This document shows positions 8,068 through 63,137 of a stretch of 64,000 nt of DNA, in pieces. The DNA lies in assembly GCA_020629835.1 (NCBI GenBank), contig JAHDCO010000016.1, forward strand, positions 1-64,000. Reading direction: 5' to 3'. Below the pieces are notes generated by a model, which saw only the letters and a program-made list of their open reading frames with translations, had not been told where the DNA came from and did no database searches. Both the position numbers and the translations under genes were made by a program. The DNA comes from Granulosicoccaceae bacterium. GTDB taxonomy: Bacteria; Pseudomonadota; Gammaproteobacteria; Granulosicoccales; Granulosicoccaceae. Numbering within the stretch: the first letter of the stretch is position 1; every line of letters begins with the position of its first letter.

Positions 8068-8769
8068 CTAATCATGGGCAGCGTCTGCCGCCCGTAAGCG
8101 ATAACCGCGACCCTTAACCGTTTCGATCATCGATGTATTGAACGGCTTGTCAATTGCAGTTCGGAGCTTGAACATCTGCACCTTTAGGTTGTTCGACTCC
8201 GGCGGTTCGTCTCCCCAGGCCGCAAAACTTAAGGTTTCACGATCAACACACGCCGGGCTTGAGCGCGCAAGCGTTTCCAGCAGTCGCCAGCCAATCGGCG
8301 ATAACTCAACCTCCCGATCTTCTCTGAGTACCCGATGATCACTGACCCGCAGCTCGAGTGCTCCAACCGTCAGGCGCTGTACGTCACCGGTGCGACGTCT
8401 TGACAACACACGCACACGCGCAGCAACTTCAACCAGCGCAAAAGGTTTCACTACGTAATCGTCTGCACCTGCCTCCAGCCCAGTGACCCGATCTTCAATC
8501 GCATCACGCGCGGTGAGCATGAGGATAGGGGTACTATCGCCTGAGCGCCGGATCCGGCGAGCAACTTCAAGTCCGTCGACTCGAGGTAGCGTTATGTCCA
8601 GCAGAATGACATCAAAGTCGGTACACGCGAGCAGCGACAACGCATGTTGACCGTCCGCTGCAAAGTCACAGCAGTGTCCCTCGAGTTCAAACCACTCGCC
8701 CAAGGTTGCCGCCAGCGCAGCATCGTCCTCAACCACCAGCAGGCGTAACGGTATGGTGTGTTTTTCCAT
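8068..8769 (-). CDS. OmpR-family response regulator
   Basis: A receiver domain (acidic pair in VVEDD, phospho-acceptor Asp58 in the ILLDITLP strand, Lys in YVVKPF) is followed by a winged-helix DNA-binding domain ending in TVKGRGYRL. I chose the ATG at 8769 over the upstream ATG at 8802 because the receiver fold begins immediately after it. It forms a pair with the kinase at 6755-8050. The likely targets are the direct repeats at 6593-6611 and 5042-5060. Confidence 0.88.
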   Translation of the reverse strand: MEKHTIPLRLLVVEDDAALAATLGEWFELEGHCCDFAADGQHALSLLACTDFDVILLDITLPRVDGLEVARRIRRSGDSTPILMLTARDAIEDRVTGLEAGADDYVVKPFALVEVAARVRVLSRRRTGDVQRLTVGALELRVSDHRVLREDREVELSPIGWRLLETLARSSPACVDRETLSFAAWGDEPPESNNLKVQMFKLRTAIDKPFNTSMIETVKGRGYRLRAADAAHD

Positions 8770-49971: not shown

Positions 49972-51186
49972 TTATACCGCCACGATATTATGGTTCGGCC
50001 CATAGCCAAAGCCCGTAATATTGTCGGCCCTGTCATCACCCACCACCAAAATATCGTGCTCGCGATAACCGCCCGCCCCAGGCGTACCTTGGGGCACCCA
50101 CAGCATCGGTTCCATTGATACCACCATGTTGCTCGTTAACATCGTATCGATGTCCTCACGCAGCTCCAGACCAGCCTCACGCCCATAGTAATGACTTAAC
50201 ACCCCGAACGAATGGCCGTAACCGAACGAACGATACTGAAGCAAGCTTTTTGCATCAAAAAACTCATTTAACTGCTCACAAATATCCGCGCACGTGGTGC
50301 CCGGCCGAATGAGTGATAACCCCAGCTCGTGCGCTTCAACATTAGCTTCCCAAATCGCCAGGCTATCCTTGTCAGGCTCACCCACAAACAAGGTGCGCTC
50401 CAACGCTGTGTAGTAACCTGAAATCATCGGAAAACAGTTCATGCTGAGAATATCGCCGTGTTCAAGTTTGCGGGTGGTTACCGGGTTATGCGCCCCATCC
50501 GTATTAATGCCTGACTGAAACCAAACCCAGGTATCGCGCTGCTCGGCATCGGGGTGCGATGACGCAATTTCCAGCTCCATCGCATCACGCGCTGCCATAG
50601 CCACATCAATTTCGCGCGTTCCTACCTTGATCGCATCGCGTATGGCCTCGCCGCCTATATCCGCGATACGTGCACCTTCACGAATCAACGCAATTTCTTC
50701 ATCCGATTTCACCATACGGGCGTGCATGGTCTGAGTAGCCATATCAATAAGCTCAATCTCCCCCAAATGCGTACGCAGTGCGTTGTGGAGAGAAAGCGTT
50801 AAATGATCGAACTCAATACCAAGTCGAGTGGTTTGTCCAATCAAGGGTTTAAGCGCACGCCAAAAATTGTCGCGACGCCAATCCGTGTAAATCACGCACT
50901 CAGATACTGAGCGACGCCAGGGTTGGCTGGCATCAATGTTCGCAGACACAACCGTACACGCTTCCTGAGTAACGACACAGCCATACGGTCGTCCAAAAGC
51001 GCAATAGAGAAATCCCGAGTAATACGCGACATTGTGCATGGAGGTAAGCAACACAACCGGAATGTCGTGTTCAGCCATAATGGAGCGCAACTGCGTTAGC
51101 CTGCGAGCGTATTCCTCGGTGGAGAATGGAAGAGTTTTACTGCCATCGTGGCGAGTGAAAAAATCGGGGCGAGTAGTTTGTGACAT
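49972..51186 (-). CDS. creatinase (creatine amidinohydrolase)
   Basis: 404 residues, the usual creatinase length, of the pita-bread M24 fold. It matches Pseudomonas creatinase closely along its length, including FQSGINTDGAHNPVTTRK, CFPMISGYYTALERTLF, FGYGHSFG and YYGREAGLELREDIDT. Catalytic residues align one position later than in P. putida: His233 (His232), Glu263 (Glu262) and Glu359 (Glu358). It hydrolyses creatine to sarcosine and urea in the cytoplasm. Sarcosine could be consumed by one of the three dehydrogenase paralogues in the window. It is divergent from a VOC gene, with a palindrome just upstream of its start. Confidence 0.9.
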   Translation of the reverse strand: MSQTTRPDFFTRHDGSKTLPFSTEEYARRLTQLRSIMAEHDIPVVLLTSMHNVAYYSGFLYCAFGRPYGCVVTQEACTVVSANIDASQPWRRSVSECVIYTDWRRDNFWRALKPLIGQTTRLGIEFDHLTLSLHNALRTHLGEIELIDMATQTMHARMVKSDEEIALIREGARIADIGGEAIRDAIKVGTREIDVAMAARDAMELEIASSHPDAEQRDTWVWFQSGINTDGAHNPVTTRKLEHGDILSMNCFPMISGYYTALERTLFVGEPDKDSLAIWEANVEAHELGLSLIRPGTTCADICEQLNEFFDAKSLLQYRSFGYGHSFGVLSHYYGREAGLELREDIDTMLTSNMVVSMEPMLWVPQGTPGAGGYREHDILVVGDDRADNITGFGYGPNHNIVAV

Positions 51187-51934: not shown

Positions 51935-52867
51935 TCAACGGCGATGCGGTTTAGCCGCAATCTGCATGGCGGTAATCATCGCATCCCGCCGTTCGGATAA
52001 TTCAGCTTGTGTTTGAGTGCTGGCTTCTTCGGCCACACCCGCTACCAACAACGCAGCCGTTTCTTCGTCTAAATGCAGCTCACCTAAATCGTCCCACCAT
52101 CGATTAAAACTGTCACTGTACCGTTCGCAAAATGCTTCTAAGCCGCCCGTACCGGCACCGAGATGGAAGAGCAGGGTGGGGCCCATAGCGGCCCAGCGTA
52201 GCCCCGGTCCTGCCCACATCGCGGTATCGATATCTTCCACACTGGCCACGCCTTCCTTCATAAGATGAATGGCTTCACGCCAAACTGCAGCTTGCAATCG
52301 GTTCGCGACATGCCCCGGCTTTTCTTTATTGACCCGAATGGTGACCTTGCCAACCGATTCATAAAACGTTTGAGCTGCTTCAACCACACCCGCTTCGGTT
52401 TTGTCGTTTCCCATGACCTCTACCAACGGTATAAGGTGCGGTGGATTAAACGGATGGCCGAGCACAAAACGCCTAGGGTTGTTCCAACCCGACTGCATCT
52501 CGGTGAGCGTTAGCCCAGAGGCCGATGACGCCACGATGGCATTGGGCAGTAGCGCCTCTTCAATTGTTCGATACAGGCGTTGTTTCAGCGGCAGTTGTTC
52601 CGAAACGCTTTCTTGCACAAACGTCGCGTTTGCTACCGCCTCAGAGGGTGAGGTAAAAAACGTTAACTTATCAGTAGAACTTGCATCACTCACCAGCCCC
52701 AACCTACTCAGTGTGGGCCAGGCTGTATTGATGTAATCCCTGACGTTCTGTTCCACGGATTTGTTGGGGTCATACACGGTAACTGAATGACCGGCTGCTA
52801 AAAACAGAGACGCCCAGCTGGCGCCGATAACACCCGCCCCAAGTACCGCTGTGGTTTGATCGCTCAT
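51935..52867 (-). CDS. L-carnitine dehydrogenase-like 3-hydroxyacyl-CoA dehydrogenase family protein
   Basis: 310 residues. The NAD site is LGAGVIGASWA (about 9-19) and the catalytic region is GHPFNPPHLIPLVEVMG with His and Asn. APGLRWAAMGPTLLFHLGAG-like sequence near 220 is characteristic of carnitine dehydrogenase and lambda-crystallin relatives rather than fatty acid FadB. Carnitine dehydrogenase oxidises L-carnitine to 3-dehydrocarnitine, which a BKACE enzyme then cleaves. The BKACE gene of this cluster (53750-54419) is broken. Last gene of the operon, 2 bases after an SDR gene. Confidence 0.82.
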   Translation of the reverse strand: MSDQTTAVLGAGVIGASWASLFLAAGHSVTVYDPNKSVEQNVRDYINTAWPTLSRLGLVSDASSTDKLTFFTSPSEAVANATFVQESVSEQLPLKQRLYRTIEEALLPNAIVASSASGLTLTEMQSGWNNPRRFVLGHPFNPPHLIPLVEVMGNDKTEAGVVEAAQTFYESVGKVTIRVNKEKPGHVANRLQAAVWREAIHLMKEGVASVEDIDTAMWAGPGLRWAAMGPTLLFHLGAGTGGLEAFCERYSDSFNRWWDDLGELHLDEETAALLVAGVAEEASTQTQAELSERRDAMITAMQIAAKPHRR

Positions 52868-52869
52868 CG

Positions 52870-53628
52870 TTAGTCTAACCCTGGACGCAATGGAGAAGCG
52901 GCGGTCATGCCGCCATCAACGGTGAAACACTGACCCGATACAAATTGCGCCTGGTCGGACACTAAATAGCTCACCATGTTGGCAATATCATCCGGTTGCC
53001 CAAAACGCCCAACGGGATGACGCTGCAACGCGCTGCGCATCGCGGCGTCCGGATCATCCGCTAGAGCGAACGCATCAGATGCCATCTCAGTCATGATCCA
53101 ACCCGGTTGTATGGCATTACAGCGCACCGCAGGGCCGTGGTCTAGTGCAATGGATCGCGTTAAGCCGTGCACAAACGCTTTTGATGCGTTGTACAACGCC
53201 ATGGTTTCATCAGCGACATTGCCAGATATCGAACCGATGTTGACGATGTTGCCACCGGTAGTAGCCATACGCTGTAAACAGGCTCGGCTCATATTAAAAA
53301 CGCCTTTGCAGTTCACACCCACTACCGCGTCCCAGTCTGCATCCGTGCTCTGCAATAGACTTTTCTCAACTTGCACGCCGGCGTTATTAACCAGCACCTC
53401 TACCGAACCGAACGTCTCTTCGGCGTACATCACTAACGCGTCTGCTTGTTCAGTCATAGCAACGTCGGTTTTTTTCCAATGCACACTGGCTGGCAAATCT
53501 TTCGGCTGCTCGCCGCGACCACAGGTCACCACGTTATAACCGTCTAGTATCAAACGCTGAACAATGGCTGCACCGATTCCACGGCTGCCACCGGTGACAA
53601 TGGCGGTGGCTTGTGCTTTATTTCCCAT
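52870..53628 (-). CDS. short-chain dehydrogenase/reductase
   Basis: 252 residues from the ATG at 53628 (a TTG at 53634 is in frame). The NAD(P) loop is TGGSRGIGAA, the NNAG motif is present, and the catalytic Ser, Tyr-x-x-x-Lys appear as GSISG and YNASK. The C-terminus GQCFTVDGGMTA is typical of classical SDRs. It would oxidise or reduce a hydroxyl group on a catabolite. Its first bases overlap the end of an aldehyde dehydrogenase remnant, which suggests that it was brought next to it by deletion. Confidence 0.85.
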   Translation of the reverse strand: MGNKAQATAIVTGGSRGIGAAIVQRLILDGYNVVTCGRGEQPKDLPASVHWKKTDVAMTEQADALVMYAEETFGSVEVLVNNAGVQVEKSLLQSTDADWDAVVGVNCKGVFNMSRACLQRMATTGGNIVNIGSISGNVADETMALYNASKAFVHGLTRSIALDHGPAVRCNAIQPGWIMTEMASDAFALADDPDAAMRSALQRHPVGRFGQPDDIANMVSYLVSDQAQFVSGQCFTVDGGMTAASPLRPGLD

Positions 53629-53698
53629 GTGCAATCATCACATCGCCATCACCAGCGACAGATTCCCCATGGATCAATAGCGTTGTTGAAATATTCAC
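53618..53698 (-). pseudogene. aldehyde dehydrogenase N-terminal remnant (about 24 codons)
   Basis: An AGGAGG ribosome site (53706-53711) precedes a GTG at 53698 that opens a 26-codon frame containing NISTTLLIHGESVAGDGDVM. This closely resembles the start of NAD-dependent aldehyde dehydrogenases of the betaine/aminobutyraldehyde type (LLINGELVAG-x-G). The usual next segment (NPATGE and the whole catalytic body with Cys and Glu) is absent, and the frame ends inside the start of the SDR gene. Read as the 5' stub of a gene removed by a deletion. The ALDH match is from memory of the family, not a search. Confidence 0.6.
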
Positions 53699-53749
53699 CA
53701 GCAAACCTCCTGTCAAACACAATTAAAATTTAACTGCGTCCAACCCTTT

Positions 53750-54419
53750 TTAATTAAGTCGCTCACGTGCTTCAGTTGGGGTGGCAACAGTCAGCCCCAT
53801 AGATTCGATAATGGTGCGAATTTTTCGTACTTGATCTGCATTGGATTTAGCCAATTCACCAGGACCAATGTATAAACTGTCTTCCAAGCCTACGCGCAGG
53901 TTTCCACCCAATATGTTCGAAACGTGTTCCGTGCCCTTCGCCCAGAGTTTGCAGCGCGTACTCGATGGTTTTAAAGGTGTTTGGGAAGACAAAATCTTTG
54001 GTCATGGCCAAAAATTCGGGTTCCCAGTCATGCTGCCAGCTCTCATGCTTTTGCAGTAACGGGAAAATACCGAAGTTCATGGAACCCATATTTAATGAAA
54101 CCATCTCAGGGCTTGCAGTAGTGGCAGCGAGCAGGCGTTCATCCATGCTCATACCCAAACCACCACCGGTTGAGATGTTTACAACGGCGTCGGTGGCCTG
54201 TTTGATCACTGGCAAAAACTGCATAAACGTTTCAGGTCGCGGATCCGGTTTACCGGTTTCAGGGTCACGTGCGTGCAGGTGAATAATGGAGGCGCCGGCC
54301 TCAGCCGCTTCAATGGAGGCCGTCCATATCTGCTGCGGTGTGATGGGTAAATGCGGGGACATGGTAGGCGTGTGAATGCCACCGGTCGGCGCACACGTAA
54401 TAATCACGGATTTAGCCAT
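53750..54419 (-). pseudogene. BKACE (DUF849) beta-keto acid cleavage enzyme, internally deleted and frameshifted
   Basis: From the ATG at 54419 the first 168 codons match BKACE: the Zn-binding HLHARDP, STGGG, SLNMGSMNFG and the TRFE glutamate. At about 53915 the frame jumps straight to GGNLRVGLEDSLYIGPGE in another frame, and the C-terminus ends TEARERLN at 53750. The roughly 75-80 residues normally between TRFE and RVGLED (the region with the GLLGGIG and GAGRNQ segments) are missing, and the net loss is not a multiple of three. No functional protein is expected. Intact relatives cleave 3-dehydrocarnitine and similar beta-keto acids with acetyl-CoA. Confidence 0.8.
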
Positions 54420-54424
54420 AGCGC

Positions 54425-55219
54425 TTACAACTTCATCTGTTGAACTTGTGCAGACAAACCGCCATCCAGTACCCATAACTGACCACTTGCATAACGAGCC
54501 TCGTCACCAGCCAACCAATTGACTAGATTGGCAATATCCTCAGGTGTGCCGTAGGTACGCATCGGGTGCACCTCGCGCACAGCCTGCTGCAGCGATTCAA
54601 TGTTTCCGCCTTGACCGCCGGAACCTTCACCTTCAAAGAAACTTTGCAACATCGGGGTATCGATATACCCGGGGCACACCGCATTAACCCGAACCCCTTC
54701 GGGCCCATGGTCACAGGCCATCGCACGAGTAAGCGCGTGCACCGCGCCTTTTGTGGCGCAGTAAGCCGCTAATCCCGGATCAGCAATGAACCCATCGTAA
54801 CTACCAAAGTTAATTAAACTGGAGGTGCCTCCTTGTTTGGCGGCAGTGCGCAACAACGGCATTAAGTGCTTAGACGTTAAAAACGTGCCGGTAACGTTCA
54901 CGGCAAACGACTGGTTCCATTCGTCTAACGAGGTTTCTTCAATCGTTTTCTCAATTTCAATACCTGCCGCATTCACCAGGATGTGTAAGGCACCGTGTTC
55001 CTGATGCAACATTTCATACAACGCTTTCGAATCAGACTCAGCGGTTACGTCCAGTTTGACGTATCGACTGCCGTCATCATCGTGATGGTTTAGCGATCCG
55101 TTTTCAGACAAGTCGGCTGCGTATACGGTTGCGCCTTCTTTCAAAAATCGTTTAACAATGGCGCGACCAATACCGCCCCGACCACCGGTTACTAGCGCAA
55201 CTTTTCCTGTTAGATTCAT
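54425..55219 (-). CDS. short-chain dehydrogenase/reductase
   Basis: 264 residues. NAD(P) loop TGGRGGIGRA, NAAG, catalytic YCATK with a preceding Ser (SLINFGSYD region), and the C-terminal ASGQLWVLDGGLS. Its start overlaps the end of the Rieske gene by 4 bases, and it sits 5 bases before the BKACE start, so it belongs to the same transcript. A role in oxidation of a hydroxylated or amino-alcohol intermediate is plausible; the substrate is not known. Confidence 0.85.
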   Translation of the reverse strand: MNLTGKVALVTGGRGGIGRAIVKRFLKEGATVYAADLSENGSLNHHDDDGSRYVKLDVTAESDSKALYEMLHQEHGALHILVNAAGIEIEKTIEETSLDEWNQSFAVNVTGTFLTSKHLMPLLRTAAKQGGTSSLINFGSYDGFIADPGLAAYCATKGAVHALTRAMACDHGPEGVRVNAVCPGYIDTPMLQSFFEGEGSGGQGGNIESLQQAVREVHPMRTYGTPEDIANLVNWLAGDEARYASGQLWVLDGGLSAQVQQMKL

Positions 55220-56337
55220 GCGTGCTCCGCCGCATAAGCGTCCAGTACCAAGCCATGAAAATGGTGCAGGGCGTGTTCTGATTTTCCCGAACCTTCCGGG
55301 TCGTGAACGATGCGACCTTGTGTGAAAGCTGGGGATTCCATGCCTCGCTGAACGCTTTCAATTAACGCAATATCCTCAACCTGCAGCACTTCATCGAGGT
55401 ACCGGATGGCATCCTGTTCCATGGCATTAGGATCAGGTGTTTCCAGAAAGAAATCGTAAGTTTCCAAAGTACGGTCCTTGCCTACGGGGATGATATTTAA
55501 AACAATCATGCTGGAGCGACCCGGATAGCGCATCAAACACGTCGTAGGCCATAGCCACCAAACCGCATGGGTTTTCACCGTCGCATCGGCTACGTCATAC
55601 GCGCTGTTGGCTGAATTGCCCGCATCCGCCATGTGACTGGAGTAGATGCCGTGTGTGGTCACTTTATAGGTATCCATATCCACCAAATCACAAAAATCTT
55701 TGTGTGCCGTGGGGCAGTGATAACACTCCAAAAAGTTGTCCACCACGTTTTTCCAATTGGTCTTTATGTCGTATTGCAATCGATGGGCAAAGGTCAAATC
55801 GGCCACATCCGGAGCCCAATGCATAACTTCGGATTTCAGGTCACCCGATTGCGTTGCTAACGAAGGAGCGTTTGGGTCAAGATTAACGAATACGAACCCA
55901 CAGAATTCCTCCACTTGAATTTCATCAAGGCAAATATCGGATTTATTAAAGTCAACCAGGTGTTTCGTGTGTGGCGCACCGTGTAAGCGGCCATCCAATT
56001 TATAGGTCCACGCGTGATAAGGGCACACGATTAACGACGTATTACCTTCACCGGTTAATAAATGATGCGCGCGGTGTTTGCACACATTGTAAAAGGCGCG
56101 TAGTTCACCTTTGTAGTCGCGCACCACAGCGATCCGCTGGCCACCCACCTCTGCGGTGGTGTAGGAGCCGGGCTCGCGGGTTTTCTCCACATGACAAACC
56201 CATTGCCACGATCGTTTGATGATGGCCTGGGTATCCACATCAAACCACTGATCGTGGGTATACGCATCCGCATGTAACGATGCGGAGCGCGCTGGATTTA
56301 CATCATAGCCAGCACTAATGGGGGGGCGCTCTGACAT
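55216..56337 (-). CDS. Rieske non-heme iron oxygenase, quaternary-amine demethylase type (CntA/GbcA-like)
   Basis: 373 residues from the ATG at 56337; the in-frame ATG at 56409 adds a weak leader. The Rieske [2Fe-2S] motif is CKHRAHHL ... CPYHAW. The mononuclear iron site is DNFLECYHCPTAH, with a Glu before the first His in place of the bridging Asp, as in carnitine oxygenase CntA and betaine demethylase relatives. These enzymes oxidatively remove or cleave methylated amines and need a separate reductase, which is not in this window. Divergent from the AraC/GlxA-type regulator and followed by SDR, BKACE and carnitine-dehydrogenase-like genes. Confidence 0.85.
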   Translation of the reverse strand: MSERPPISAGYDVNPARSASLHADAYTHDQWFDVDTQAIIKRSWQWVCHVEKTREPGSYTTAEVGGQRIAVVRDYKGELRAFYNVCKHRAHHLLTGEGNTSLIVCPYHAWTYKLDGRLHGAPHTKHLVDFNKSDICLDEIQVEEFCGFVFVNLDPNAPSLATQSGDLKSEVMHWAPDVADLTFAHRLQYDIKTNWKNVVDNFLECYHCPTAHKDFCDLVDMDTYKVTTHGIYSSHMADAGNSANSAYDVADATVKTHAVWWLWPTTCLMRYPGRSSMIVLNIIPVGKDRTLETYDFFLETPDPNAMEQDAIRYLDEVLQVEDIALIESVQRGMESPAFTQGRIVHDPEGSGKSEHALHHFHGLVLDAYAAEHA

Positions 56338-56423
56338 GTTCCAACTCCGAATTAAAGCCGCGCACGGGCGTACCGCCGTCTTAATCTTTACTGTGTCGTG
56401 TTTTTTCACGCGTTATGAGACAA

Positions 56424-56454: not shown

Positions 56455-56499
56455 CGGTATCACCCGGCAACCCCACATCTCGGAGTGCAAACGAGTTCT

Positions 56500-57495
56500 G
56501 TGACCGAGCAAGCGACAAACCGGTCCTTAACCCTCGCGATGATCCTGTTGCCATCATTCAACATGCACGCGACCACGTCATTTATTGATCCGTTGAGAGC
56601 TGCAAATTATCTGGTCGGCGAACACCGCTTTCAGTGGGTATTTTTAAGTGTCGCGGGTGGCAAAGTCAGCGCCAGTAACGGCATGGAGTTGCATACACAA
56701 CGCCTAGTCGACTTTGATCGACTGCCGCAGTGGTCGGTTGTGTCTGCCAGTTGGACACCCGAACAACATCAAGATAAGCAACTGCTCAGAGTGTTAAAGC
56801 AACACGCTCGGCGAAATTCAACGCTGTGTGGTTTAGACACGGGTGCGTTTATATTAGGTTACGCCGGTCTTCTGGACGGGCGTAAGGCCACGGTTCACTA
56901 TGAACACCTGAACGCGTTTAAAGAACTGTTTAACCAGGTTCACGTCAGCGATGCTCGCTACGAATGGAGCGAACGCATCGTCACCTGCGGCGGAGGACAA
57001 GCCGCTACCGATGTATCGCTGCAACTGGTGCAGCAAGAACTGGGCGTTGTGATAGCAAACTCAGCAGCGCAATACATCTATCAACCTGGCGCAGCAAACG
57101 ACCAGTCAAACGGATCTTTGCCTTGGCACAGGTCAACCGAACACGCTTTTCCCAGCAACTTAAAGCAGGCCATTCAGCTTATGCAGTTGAACTTAGAGCA
57201 AACGCTTAGCATTCCAGAGATTGCCACTAGCCTCAACATTTCTCAACGACAGCTGGAGCGATTGTTTAATCAGTACCTTGGACAAACAGCCACCCATCAC
57301 TACCTTAACCTACGCCTCGACAGAGCCCGCGGCTTAATCACCCAAACCGACATGCAAATTGTTGATGTGGCAGTAGCGTGTGGCTTTGTTTCGGCTGTGC
57401 ATTTTTCCCGCGTCTATAAAAAGCGATTCGCGATTACGCCTAAGCAAGATCGTGTGTCTGGCCGTGTGCCTTTTGAGTTTCGAGATGTTCGCTGA
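56500..57495 (+). CDS. GlxA/CdhR-like AraC-family regulator
   Basis: 331 residues from the GTG at 56500 (a GTG at 56485 is also in frame). A GATase1/DJ-1-like sensor domain (about 10-190, with STLCGLDTGAFILGYAGLLDGRKATVHYEH) is joined to an AraC helix-turn-helix pair (about 225-325, with ISQRQLERLFNQYLG and VAVACGFVSAVHFSRVYKKRF). GbdR, CdhR and SouR, which control glycine betaine, carnitine and sarcosine genes, have this layout. It likely activates the divergent Rieske operon. Confidence 0.85.
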   Translation: MTEQATNRSLTLAMILLPSFNMHATTSFIDPLRAANYLVGEHRFQWVFLSVAGGKVSASNGMELHTQRLVDFDRLPQWSVVSASWTPEQHQDKQLLRVLKQHARRNSTLCGLDTGAFILGYAGLLDGRKATVHYEHLNAFKELFNQVHVSDARYEWSERIVTCGGGQAATDVSLQLVQQELGVVIANSAAQYIYQPGAANDQSNGSLPWHRSTEHAFPSNLKQAIQLMQLNLEQTLSIPEIATSLNISQRQLERLFNQYLGQTATHHYLNLRLDRARGLITQTDMQIVDVAVACGFVSAVHFSRVYKKRFAITPKQDRVSGRVPFEFRDVR

Positions 57496-57528: not shown

Positions 57529-58422
57529 TTAGTCAATCAATTCAGGCCAATACAAACGCATTGGATTATCCACTAATAGTTTTTGCTGCTTGAGGGAGGA
57601 ATCAGCGATCAGCGGAATCATCTCAACTAATTGACCGTCGTCTGGCATGTGACTTTTCATATTCGGATGTGGCCAATCGGTACCCCACAGTACCCGATCA
57701 GGGAACGCATCCACAAGGTGCTTCATAAAAGGCACCACGTCAGAATAGTTTTGATGACTACCGCCCTGTTTTGTCAGGCGTTCAGGACATGAAACTTTGG
57801 TCCAGTATTTCTCATTGTTCATCAAATCAACGAACTGAATGAAGTCTGGGTGGTGGATACCTTTGCTTACATCCGGACGCGCCATGTGATCGAAGACCAC
57901 GTCTACCGGCAAGCTGTTGAGAAAGGGTACGTAATGCGCAAAATCCGCCGCTTCGATGTACACAATGACATGCCAACCTAACGGGGATATTTTATCAATA
58001 ATTCGCTCGTAATATGGATGAGGTTTGGGATCAACCAGTCGTCTAACAAAGTTAAACCGCACACCACGCACACCGGCTAGGTGCATGTGCTGAAGTTCGT
58101 CATCGGTAATATCGTCAGCTACCACCGCAATACCCCGAGCCTTATTCTCAGACGCCTGTAGGCCATCCAACAAAGCCGCATTGTCGGTGCCGTGGCAAGA
58201 GGCTTGTACAATCACATTGCGAGAAAAACTTAAGTGATCGCGCAATGAAAACAGCTGTTCTTTCGATCCTGTGCAAGGCGTGTACTTGCGCTCCGGCGCG
58301 TAAGGAAACACATCCTCCGGTCCGAATATGTGGCAATGCGCGTCAACCGCACCATCGGGCAGCTTAAAGCGCGGTTTACGCGGGTTTTGATGCCAGTGCA
58401 TCCAATCAGCATCCATAGGCAT
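57529..58422 (-). CDS. ligI: 2-pyrone-4,6-dicarboxylate hydrolase (LigI-type amidohydrolase)
   Basis: 297 residues of the amidohydrolase superfamily (COG3618). The metal-binding His pair is in VDAHCHIFGP (His29, His31) and a catalytic Asp in WGTDWPHPN. It opens the lactone of 2-pyrone-4,6-dicarboxylate to 4-oxalomesaconate, the third step of the protocatechuate 4,5-cleavage pathway. Last gene of the lig/gal operon, 14 bases after galD. Confidence 0.86.
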   Translation of the reverse strand: MPMDADWMHWHQNPRKPRFKLPDGAVDAHCHIFGPEDVFPYAPERKYTPCTGSKEQLFSLRDHLSFSRNVIVQASCHGTDNAALLDGLQASENKARGIAVVADDITDDELQHMHLAGVRGVRFNFVRRLVDPKPHPYYERIIDKISPLGWHVIVYIEAADFAHYVPFLNSLPVDVVFDHMARPDVSKGIHHPDFIQFVDLMNNEKYWTKVSCPERLTKQGGSHQNYSDVVPFMKHLVDAFPDRVLWGTDWPHPNMKSHMPDDGQLVEMIPLIADSSLKQQKLLVDNPMRLYWPELID

Positions 58423-58436
58423 GGTGAGCGCTCCTC

Positions 58437-59489
58437 CTAGTCAAACACTGTGCCATCAAATAGTTTTCTTGCGGTACGAACGATGGCGGTGCTCTCAACG
58501 CGTCCGTCATCAGCCACCTTGGCATCAATGGCCGTAGCTCCGGTCGGATGTTCAATCAATAAACGTTTTTTACCGCCCGCCGGAAGGTCAGCCAAATCAG
58601 TGGCTACGCTTCCTGCAACCAGACAAGCCGTGGCGACACTGACCGCACCCAGCACACCAATACTGGCGTGACACCGATGTGGAATAAACGTGCGTGTAGA
58701 CACGCAACCTCCGTTCATCGGCGCGCTAAGTAACGTCATTTTCGGTACGGTCTTGTTGCTTACATCACCTAAGTTCATCAAAGGCCCGCTCGCAAGACGT
58801 ATTGACTCCAGGCGGCTTTTTAATTGGCTATCGTTATCTAACTCTGCACGAGACTCGCTACCTTGAATGCCAAAATCAGCGGCACGGAGTAACACGACGG
58901 GCATACCGTTATCGATGAGCGTTGCAGACAATCCATCCACCACATCAACGGCATTGCCTGTCGGCAAAAGCGCGCCGCAGCTTGAACCGGCAATGTCCTT
59001 GAACGCCATGGATATCGCCGCCGCGGTTCCAGGAACGCCATCGATTGCGGTATGGCCTTCGTAAACGGGTTTTCCGTTTTTTACGCTAACACTCACCACC
59101 GCCAATTCTTGCGAATTTTCCATGAAGACGGTTACCTTTGATAACCCGTCGCCTGCGTTAACTAAACCACGTTCGATGGCAAAGGGCCCCACGGCAGCCA
59201 GCAAATTACCGCAGTTTTGCGCATCGCTGACTAAGGCTTCATTAACAGCGACTTGTAAAAATAAATAATCAACATCTACCCCCGGGCGTTCGGAAAGTTT
59301 GACGACAGCAACTTTTGATGTCAGCGGGTCTGCACCACCGATGCCATCAATCTGCCGATCATCAGGTGAACCGAGAACGCGTAGCAAGAAAGTGTCTCGC
59401 TCTGCGGGTAGATCCTCAGCGATGAAAAACGCGCCTTTGGATGTGCCGCCGCGCATCCACATGCACCGTACGCCATCAGTCATACACAA
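58437..59489 (-). CDS. galD: 4-oxalomesaconate tautomerase (GalD-type PrpF family)
   Basis: 350 residues. The PrpF-fold motif [13 protein letters not shown] near 11-23 and the [13 protein letters not shown] segment are clear. GalD interconverts the keto and enol forms of 4-oxalomesaconate so that the hydratase GalB can use it. Its start overlaps the aldolase gene by 14 bases (ATG at 59489; also 59483). The other PrpF paralogue (32374-33456) is tied to a transporter and probably has a different job. Confidence 0.86.
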
Positions 59490-60150
59490 GCCCGGCGTCT
59501 TTCAAACGCCCTCTCATGTTGTACATATCAAGGCCTAATTCACCGGAGGCTAATCGCTGACGCTTTGAGTCCTCATTACTCAGTCGGGTTTGTGCTTTTT
59601 CCAACACGAGTTCAGCCTCAGATCGCTTGACCACGCACACACCGTCATCATCGGCCACAACAACATCGCCCGCGTCCAGCGCTGCACCCGCACAGACAAT
59701 CGGCACATTGACCGAACCTAACGTCTCTTTAACGGTTCCTTGCGCACAGATGGCCTTGGACCATACCGGGAACTGCATTTTTGTAAGGTCTTGAACATCC
59801 CTGACTCCCGCATCAATGATTAACCCCTGGCAGCCGCGTGTTTGTGCAGATGTAGCGAGTAGGTCGCCGAAGTAACCCGCATCCGATGGCGATGTGGTAG
59901 CGAGCACCAAAACATCTCCCGCTTGTAGCTGTTCAATCGCCACATGCACCATCCAGTTGTCTGCTGGGGGTGCCAGTATGGTCACTGCGGATCCGGCAAT
60001 CGCGGCACCCGAATAGATCGGTCGCATATAACTGGCCAGTAAGCCCGTTCTGTCTTGAGATTCATGCACGGTGGCGACGCCGCAGGCGGCTAAACCCGCG
60101 ACGATGGCTTTATCTGCGCGTTCGATACGCTGGCGTACGATGCCCATCAT
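59476..60150 (-). CDS. ligK: 4-carboxy-4-hydroxy-2-oxoadipate aldolase (LigK/GalC-type)
   Basis: 224 residues of the RraA-like class II aldolase family. [25 protein letters not shown] contains the family G-x-D-x-x-F-type region, and [11 protein letters not shown] carries the metal-binding Asp and Arg of RraA-like aldolases. It cleaves 4-carboxy-4-hydroxy-2-oxoadipate to pyruvate and oxaloacetate, the last step of the pathway. The ATG (60150) directly follows the GalB stop codon. Confidence 0.86.
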
Positions 60151-60882
60151 TTACAGTTCGTCCACGCAGCGTGGGTACACTGACTCAAACCCTTCCGCGT
60201 ACTGTGCGGCACGTCCACCGGACTGCCCACCGGAGTTTCTACGAAAGTGATTACCGCGGTTTTCAGCCACGTTGGTGTAGAAATTCCACAGATGATGCTG
60301 GCCTTCCATACACTCAATGGCGGCGCGCTTTTGCTCCCATACATCGGTGATGTCGAGAAACGTATCCGGTTTCCAACCCATCTGTTCGGTCTGATGTGGC
60401 TCAAACAAATACAGTTGCGGAGCGCCCAGTACTTTCTCTCCCGGGTTATGACCCCAGGCTTGGGCGATCATGCGAACCTCCATGGCAACATTGGTCGTAT
60501 ACATGTGATCCGTATTGTATGGGTCATACTTCGAGTGACTCATCATGAATGCGGGTTGCACTGAGCGGATCAGGTCCACTAATCGAAACTTAGCGTCATT
60601 ATCGAGTTGCAGCGGGTAATCACCCAGATCAAAACATTGAAGGTCGTGAACATTCAATGCACTCGCTGCGTTTTCAGCTTCTTTGCGCCGAATGGATTTC
60701 ACTTCATTCAGCGTTTTTCCTTCCTTCCATAACCGCGCACTTTCGCCGCGCTCTCCAAAGGATAAACACGCAACGGTCACTTCGTAACCCAGCTTTTGAT
60801 GCAGAGCAATGGCGCCCCCACAACGCCAGACGAAATCAGCCGCGTGCGCAGAAATAACAAGAGCGGTTTTTTTGTTGGACAC
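60151..60882 (-). CDS. galB: 4-oxalomesaconate hydratase (GalB-type, PIG-L fold)
   Basis: 243 residues of the PIG-L/LmbE deacetylase fold: ALVISAHAADFVWRCGG at the start stands where deacetylases have AHPDD, and SHSKYDPYNTDH contains the second His cluster. Members linked to lig/gal genes are the Zn-dependent hydratases GalB, unrelated to LigJ. It hydrates the enol form of 4-oxalomesaconate. Placed between ligC and the aldolase gene. Confidence 0.85.
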   Translation of the reverse strand: MSNKKTALVISAHAADFVWRCGGAIALHQKLGYEVTVACLSFGERGESARLWKEGKTLNEVKSIRRKEAENAASALNVHDLQCFDLGDYPLQLDNDAKFRLVDLIRSVQPAFMMSHSKYDPYNTDHMYTTNVAMEVRMIAQAWGHNPGEKVLGAPQLYLFEPHQTEQMGWKPDTFLDITDVWEQKRAAIECMEGQHHLWNFYTNVAENRGNHFRRNSGGQSGGRAAQYAEGFESVYPRCVDEL

Positions 60883-60944
60883 GAATCTGCCTTTTGTTTA
60901 GTTTGAGAGTGGGGGAGCTGTCATACCGATGTTGATAGGTGGTG

Positions 60945-61901
60945 TCAGACCTTCAAAACACCCATCTGATCTTCGAGTTGCTGCATGACACGCATGACCG
61001 CTAAGCCTTGTGCAAAACTTGAATTAGGCTCGCGTTTTTCCATGATAGCGGAGATAAATTCTCTATCAATGAGTTCAATTCCGTTATTGGATACGGCGAC
61101 ACTGGTTAAATCAATCGGATTTTCGTTGCCGTCCATCAAATCATCGTAGCGTGCGATGTAGGTGCCGCTGTCACCGATGTATCGAAAGAATGAACCGAAA
61201 GGGCCATCGTTATTGAACGATAACGACAAGGTGCAAAGTTTACCCGAAGCTGTTTTTAAGCCAATAGTCATATCCATCGCAATACCCAACTCCGGATGAG
61301 CCGGGCCTTGAAAACCGAAAATTTCACTTGGAATCTCACCGGTTTGGTAAATAAAGAGATCAATGGTGTGACACGCATGATGCCACAGCAAATGATCTGT
61401 CCAACTGCGCGGCTCACCCTTGGCGTTCGTGTTGGTACGGCGAAAAAAGTACGTTTGGGCGTCCATCTGTTGAAGGGTAAAGGCACCCTCATCAATCCGT
61501 TGCTTCACCCATTGGTGTGAGGGGTTAAAGCGCCTGACGTGGCCGACCATGCCCACGACACCCGTTTCTTTTTGAACCGCAGCCATCTGTTCAGCATCAT
61601 TCAAACTATCGGCCATAGGAATTTCTGCGAACGTATGCTTTCCTGCGCGCATGGCCTGAATCGACTGCGCACAATGCAATTGCGTTGGCGTGGACAGAAT
61701 CACCGCATCCACATCCTGGCTTAAAAAATCCTCATAGTCAGAACATGCATGAGCGATGTTCCTTTCAGAGGCTAACGCGGTGATCTTGTCTTTATTGGGC
61801 CCGAATACAGTCGTAACGTCCGCGTGCTCAATGTTAGCCAAGGCATCCAGATGCTTTAGACCAAAGGCGCCGTAGGCACCGGCAACACCAATCTTCAACA
61901 T
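60945..61901 (-). CDS. ligC: 4-carboxy-2-hydroxymuconate-6-semialdehyde dehydrogenase (LigC-type)
   Basis: 318 residues, close to the size of LigC (about 315), of the Gfo/Idh/MocA family. The NAD(P) loop is GVAGAYGAFGLKH, EIPMADS near 93 stands in for the usual EKP motif, and WHHACHTIDLFIYQTG near 178 holds the conserved His residues of LigC. It oxidises the ring-cleavage product, in its cyclic hemiacetal form, to 2-pyrone-4,6-dicarboxylate. It is 1 base from ligB. Confidence 0.88.
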   Translation of the reverse strand: MLKIGVAGAYGAFGLKHLDALANIEHADVTTVFGPNKDKITALASERNIAHACSDYEDFLSQDVDAVILSTPTQLHCAQSIQAMRAGKHTFAEIPMADSLNDAEQMAAVQKETGVVGMVGHVRRFNPSHQWVKQRIDEGAFTLQQMDAQTYFFRRTNTNAKGEPRSWTDHLLWHHACHTIDLFIYQTGEIPSEIFGFQGPAHPELGIAMDMTIGLKTASGKLCTLSLSFNNDGPFGSFFRYIGDSGTYIARYDDLMDGNENPIDLTSVAVSNNGIELIDREFISAIMEKREPNSSFAQGLAVMRVMQQLEDQMGVLKV

Positions 61902-61902
61902 G

Positions 61903-63137
<1,235 letters not shown>

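Follow-up and report, generated by a model that had tools for sequence, protein, structure and literature searches.

Does the minus-strand gene for a beta-keto acid cleavage enzyme (BKACE) on contig JAHDCO010000016.1 of a Granulosicoccaceae bacterium (assembly GCA_020629835.1) still encode a working enzyme, and what has become of the same gene in related genomes? We addressed this question in the first 64,000 nucleotides of the contig, referred to here as the window, and in genomes of its genus, order and phylum. The gene is very probably a real and recent pseudogene in an otherwise intact-looking catabolic operon, from which the family seems to have lost BKACE repeatedly; the window would hold one such loss part-way.

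A BKACE gene with two lesions

The gene lies on the minus strand, starting at 54419 and closing with an ancestral-type stop at 53723; it is disrupted by a deletion in its interior and by a premature stop (Table 1). Frame 1 follows the family for 168 codons to ...GHGTRFE and continues with 19 unrelated residues to a stop. After this stretch comes LGGNLRVGLEDSLYIG... in frame 2, and the family sequence starts again in this other frame at LGGNLRVGLED. Relative to L024, an orthologue of 310 aa, the gene lacks 236 nt at 53915/53916, where E168 meets L249 in the wrong frame; the two residues are spaced by 240 nt in L024 (310 codons) and by 4 nt in the window. Since 236 is not a multiple of 3, the frame is shifted. 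The preliminary description of this DNA had read 168 codons up to the TRFE glutamate, then a jump at about 53915 into another frame, with some 230 bases and the frame lost. Translation of the frames, two matches to the Pfam profile PF05853 and alignment to the BKACE family, with L024 as reference, all bear this out.

PF05853 matches the first open frame over profile positions 2–145 (E = 3.4e-48, 164.8 bits) and the second over positions 219–273 of 274 (E = 6.1e-19, 68.8 bits), against a cut-off of 24.8 bits in both cases; matches this strong exclude chance. No complete TIM barrel is encoded, with profile positions between 145 and 219 of 274 unmatched, and by the structural model of an orthologue the gene would have lost strands 6 and 7. 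The HLH and R-x3-E-D residues, invariant in 16 aligned orthologues, are kept across the two pieces, as had been described for the well-preserved ends of the gene.

The second lesion was overlooked in the preliminary description, which took 53750 for the end of the gene. Positions 53750–53752 are a premature TAA at the place of Leu302 (L024 numbering), a leucine invariant in the 16 aligned orthologues, and the usual family ending, KGLDAVKF followed by a stop at 53723–53725, is readable behind it. We compared the gene with orthologues from contigs of other genomes, keeping the best 80 of 385. Among these, 77 of 80 end in LKGxxxVxF; the exceptions are L054, with another last residue, L079, which runs off its contig, and L077, which has an early stop of its own. 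A stop is reached at 296–313 aa in 79 of the 80, L079 ending with its contig at 304 aa, and an internal deletion is found in none of them. L077 (439–1329) is an orthologous BKACE on a proteobacterial contig; its frame closes after 296 aa, and the family tail can still be read beyond.

Both lesions, the deletion with loss of frame and the stop at Leu302, are present in the window and absent from the examined orthologues, and we class the gene as a pseudogene on this comparison. The stop alone may be mild rather than lethal to the enzyme, because L077 also stops early and because the last ten residues form neither helix nor strand in the AlphaFold model of an orthologue (mean pLDDT 76). The predicted product of 187 aa would lack the end of barrel strand 5, strands 6 and 7 and their helices, and the C-terminal R, E and D residues, being out of frame, would be missing from it.

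Table 1 Features of the broken BKACE gene and of the surrounding operon (window positions)
Feature	Position	Strand	Basis and remarks
BKACE pseudogene, first piece	53916..54419	-	Codons 1–168 to the TRFE glutamate; HLH pair; PF05853 2–145; 90% aa identity to L024
Deletion junction	53915..53916	-	236 nt absent relative to 310-aa L024; frame lost
BKACE pseudogene, second piece	53750..53911	-	53 codons LGGNLRVGLED...RERLN up to TAA; R254, E258, D259 (L024 numbering); PF05853 219–273
Second lesion, premature TAA	53750..53752	-	Place of Leu302; 77/80 orthologues end LKGxxxVxF
Untranslated old C-terminus KGLDAVKF and ancestral-type stop	53723..53749	-	Translation; family ending
Open frame of the broken gene	53856..54419	-	187 aa: 168 of the family and 19 out of frame
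Rieske oxygenase alpha subunit, GbcA-like	55216..56409	-	148.1 bits, a long way short of the GbcA cut-off (670); CxH..CxxH motif
SDR1, short-chain dehydrogenase directly before BKACE, full length	54425..55219	-	Domain match, motifs
SDR2, short-chain dehydrogenase after BKACE, full length	52870..53634	-	Domain match, motifs
HCDH, 3-hydroxyacyl-CoA/carnitine-dehydrogenase-like NAD enzyme, full length	51935..52867	-	Profile match, motifs
AraC/GbdR-like regulator, divergent from the operon	56485..57495	+	247.6 bits; GbdR cut-off 480

Age of the decay

The two pieces are 90% (168 codons) and 77% (53 codons) identical to L024; for the neighbouring genes, identity to the L024 locus is 75% (SDR1), 67% (SDR2), 67% (HCDH) and 75% (Rieske). 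In relative-rate counts, changes confined to the window and to L024 number 10 to 6 in the first piece and 5 to 4 in the second; with L074 in place of L024 they become 11 to 22 and 8 to 4. Of the columns invariant among 16 intact orthologues, 86 in the first piece and 28 in the second, the window departs from 2 and 1; intact orthologues left out singly break 0–4 and 0–3 of the respective columns. The dN/dS ratio was of no use here, synonymous sites being saturated (pS 0.74–0.92). These values fit a recent loss, possibly with some acceleration of change in the second piece. The earlier view of a dead gene in recent decay thus agrees with both the identities and the column breaks, which lie within the range of intact genes.

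BKACE is missing from the same operon in several relatives

We searched 48 genomes of the order and found SDR1 orthologues (E <= 1e-70) in 17, then mapped the operon genes in larger stretches from the 16 other SDR1-bearing genomes, most of which are draft assemblies. BKACE lies inside the operon in 5 of the 17 (G021, G030, G033, G039 and G044), and SDR1 adjoins SDR2 with no BKACE between them in 7 (G042, G022, G029, G031, G010, G032 and G023). Remnants are present in two, this genome and G040, and the state is undecidable in three: G003, where the contig ends, and G019 and G008, which have SDR1 without the operon. The preliminary description had proposed a check of sister strains; it made no mention of relatives that also lack the operon gene.

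In G040 a stretch of 150 nt in the space between SDR1 and SDR2 is made up of the start and the end of the gene, at 78% and 77% identity to its 933-nt counterpart in G044 (E = 6e-8 and 3e-12), with about 780 nt missing and an internal frame change. This lesion is unlike that of the window, so the two decayed independently. A search for remnants in the SDR1–SDR2 gaps of eight operons without intact BKACE detected only that of G040 (L151, E = 8e-9); in the remaining seven no match was better than 0.03. Truncated BKACE genes in G008 (contig 118) and G002 (contig 306) run into contig ends and were dropped as cases of decay.

Other features of these gaps were recorded separately. At 8080–8125 of L159 and 340–420 of L162 the first SDR2 codons, just after SDR1, resemble a BKACE start and are possible fusion scars of a clean BKACE deletion; these starts (MTKSV and MKPVI) are plausible for an SDR too and were left uncounted as remnants. 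The SDR1–SDR2 gap of the G022 operon, which has no BKACE, contains what by eye resembles a run of degenerate short repeats (L154, 7210–7495). In a phylum-wide sample of 398 genomes SDR1 was found only in this genome among the matches listed, with at most six candidates scored per genome, and the sample therefore says nothing firm on alphaproteobacteria.

We built an operon tree from Rieske, SDR1, SDR2 and HCDH (34 rows, 1189 columns), nine rows of which have the lost state. With outgroups, the lost state requires 8 changes (6 forced by starred branches; bootstrap range 7–8), the outgroup rows all having come from the BKACE search and so having BKACE by selection. Within the family alone it requires 5, the maximum possible from five rows with BKACE present, and in 296 of 500 shuffles of the labels the count was as low, so the lost state shows no excess of clustering. 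Starred sisters pair the remnant of G040 with the intact gene of G044, and G029, which lacks the gene, with G030, which has it intact. The direction, loss or gain, is fixed on this tree only by the two remnants. In the BKACE gene tree the window pieces join G021 (90/88, not starred), and together with G021 and the other four family members they form one starred clade (97/94), which fits inheritance of BKACE together with the operon.

The absence of the same gene from the same operon in several relatives makes the loss look like a recurrent and fairly ordinary one, caught part-way in the window. BKACE appears to have been lost from the operon several times in the family, and therefore seems dispensable to the remaining genes. 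What is new here is the pattern across the 17 genomes (5 with BKACE in the operon, 7 without it there, 2 with remnants and 3 undecidable), by which BKACE looks like a component that the operon has given up more than once.

Alternative explanations

An assembly or binning fault would mean that the contig is collapsed or chimeric at 53915 and that the living organism has an intact BKACE. The genome is a draft of 149 contigs, the gene of the closest relative (L024, from G021) is intact, and the junction rests on one draft assembly, which would also suit a rare variant or a chimeric contig. The junction, searched as 21 bases with up to 2 mismatches allowed, is nevertheless confined to this genome among the 27 of the genus, and for a 161-nt stretch across it the best matches elsewhere in the genome are 16 exact bases and 24 bases at 83%; short-read assembly would thus have met no evident repeat on which to collapse. 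Comparison with the orthologues suggests that the joined ends share little microhomology, if any. None of the other contigs carries the missing segment (80 residues of L024), the only match to it in the genome being a 35%-identical paralogue on contig 19. The stop at Leu302, which lies about 160 bp from the junction and arose separately from it, also speaks against a fault, and G040 carries a different remnant of the same gene. We consider an assembly fault, which the preliminary description had listed among its explanations, to be unlikely, with only a small chance of being correct. A functional shortened or split protein, that is, a frameshifted or two-chain enzyme, is more improbable still: metal- and substrate-binding residues do survive in the two pieces, but none of the 80 orthologues kept of 385 is shortened likewise, strands 6 and 7 of the model would be lost and the tail is cut off too.

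Takeover by another BKACE, which would have made the loss tolerable, is compatible with a pseudogene, and both can hold. The candidates are the enzyme on contig 19 and, in some relatives, a second and more distant BKACE. We found one other BKACE in the genome, intact and beside a carnitine dehydrogenase–thioesterase fusion on contig 19; the thioesterase part is our reading of a full-length match to a 495-position model. It scores 214.7 bits on NF053538 (cut-off 430), which places it in a different subfamily. The suggested search for an intact paralogue thus succeeded in finding a gene, of another subfamily than the orthologue of the window gene, and the proposed rescue by another copy loses ground accordingly. 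Six of the nine genomes in which the operon gene was lost, and one of the five in which it was kept, have a further BKACE at least 53% identical to L024 at another locus; the association is non-significant (one-sided Fisher p = 0.13, uncorrected for kinship) and serves as a lead only. The genome of the window has no copy at that threshold. G000, G022 and G042 lack such a second copy at E <= 1e-80, and G021 has kept its operon BKACE despite a 36%-identical BKACE elsewhere. Takeover is a doubtful explanation on this evidence, though a better one than an assembly fault.

The operon and its likely pathway

The operon has the order Rieske oxygenase, SDR1, BKACE, SDR2, HCDH. The neighbours of BKACE are full-length open frames with SDR, Rieske-cluster and nucleotide-binding motifs kept; a motif for the Rieske mononuclear iron site had no match in the Rieske gene and was given no weight. 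Among the best 80 of 385 orthologue loci, all four partners (Rieske, SDR1, SDR2 and HCDH at 50–60% identity or more) lie near BKACE in 42; among the 50 loci that span at least 10 kb, 40 have this arrangement. None of the four is present in 8 of these 50, and BKACE of the NF053538 type therefore occurs outside the operon too. A choline-sulfatase-like gene is found in 41 of the 80 loci and an aldehyde dehydrogenase in 39, at 50% identity or more. The two choline-sulfatases scored, located within or next to the operons of relatives, both pass the cut-off of 433 bits (669 and 699 bits), and an OpuAC transport protein adjoins the operon in Paracoccus sp. MKU1. The genome of the window has its own choline-sulfatase on another contig (C9) and no close match to the aldehyde dehydrogenase of the relatives' operons (best 36% identity).

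Two further regions of the window were recorded. Positions 49972–51186 encode an M24-family enzyme, which we take to resemble creatinase, with a 67% homologue near the same operon in G042 (L148, 2512–3708). The consecutive genes at 57529–62757 carry LigB, GFO/IDH-type oxidoreductase, PIG-L, RraA, PrpF and amidohydrolase domains and presumably form a protocatechuate/gallate 4,5-cleavage pathway cluster.

We infer the enzyme step and the substrate of the operon from gene content. The substrate is likely to be quaternary-amine-like, given the choline-sulfatases in the loci and OpuAC beside the operon. Judging from the neighbours only, HCDH in intact relatives would oxidise the 3-hydroxy acid of such a substrate to a beta-keto acid, and BKACE would cleave this with acetyl-CoA to acetoacetate and an acyl-CoA. 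In this strain the cleavage step would be missing, or another route would stand in its stead. Among the titles listed from the literature, none concerned loss of the operon BKACE, and the accessible part of a Roseobacter choline paper (PMC4744692) mentions neither 'Rieske' nor 'keto acid'.

Taken by itself, the window gene is a pseudogene of an ordinary kind, from an environmental genome, and a warning that the strain should not be read as able to finish the pathway. Relatives with and without BKACE offer a natural experiment on the substrate of the operon and on the need for the cleavage step. More tentatively, a Rieske–SDR–SDR–HCDH operon for a quaternary-amine-like compound, widespread and apparently uncharacterised, could contain BKACE as an optional module. 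If Granulosicoccaceae have dropped this module at least five times, a second, BKACE-independent exit for the beta-keto intermediate would follow; we regard this reading as possible, with the balance somewhat against it.

Comparison with known systems

Both window pieces match the BKACE family (PF05853, DUF849, Kce-like), from which the gene differs in that its middle (about profile positions 146–218) is gone and its frame broken. On sequence grounds we assign it as the pseudogene of a putative zinc-dependent beta-keto acid cleavage enzyme with orthologues in subfamily NF053538, named '3,5-dioxohexanoate:acetyl-CoA acetone transferase'; the score that passes this model (515.4 bits, cut-off 430) is that of intact L024 and not of the broken gene. 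The best solved relatives of L024 are 3e02 (425 bits, nearly full length), 3e49 and BKACE15 of Paracoccus denitrificans (8rio/8rip). In the part of the BKACE15 study available (PMC11961710), its authors describe the enzyme as having no known physiological role and propose, from context, a link to aromatic degradation, a setting unlike the operon of the window.

The GbcA-like Rieske oxygenase and GbdR-like regulator recall glycine betaine and choline-O-sulfate catabolism (GbcA, GbdR, BetC), although both proteins of the window score far below the respective cut-offs. CdhC-type BKACE, as described in the accessible part of PMC12482172, cleaves 3-dehydrocarnitine in L-carnitine catabolism; it belongs to the same enzyme family, and the window gene likewise lies beside a carnitine-dehydrogenase-like enzyme. 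The preliminary description had called this neighbour carnitine dehydrogenase, but HCDH reaches only 253.8 and 223.6 bits on models that require 414 and 592, and the 'carnitine' label for the window cluster is weak. The BKACE on contig 19 fits the CdhC-type role better, since its partner enzyme passes the carnitine 3-dehydrogenase model (672 bits, cut-off 592).
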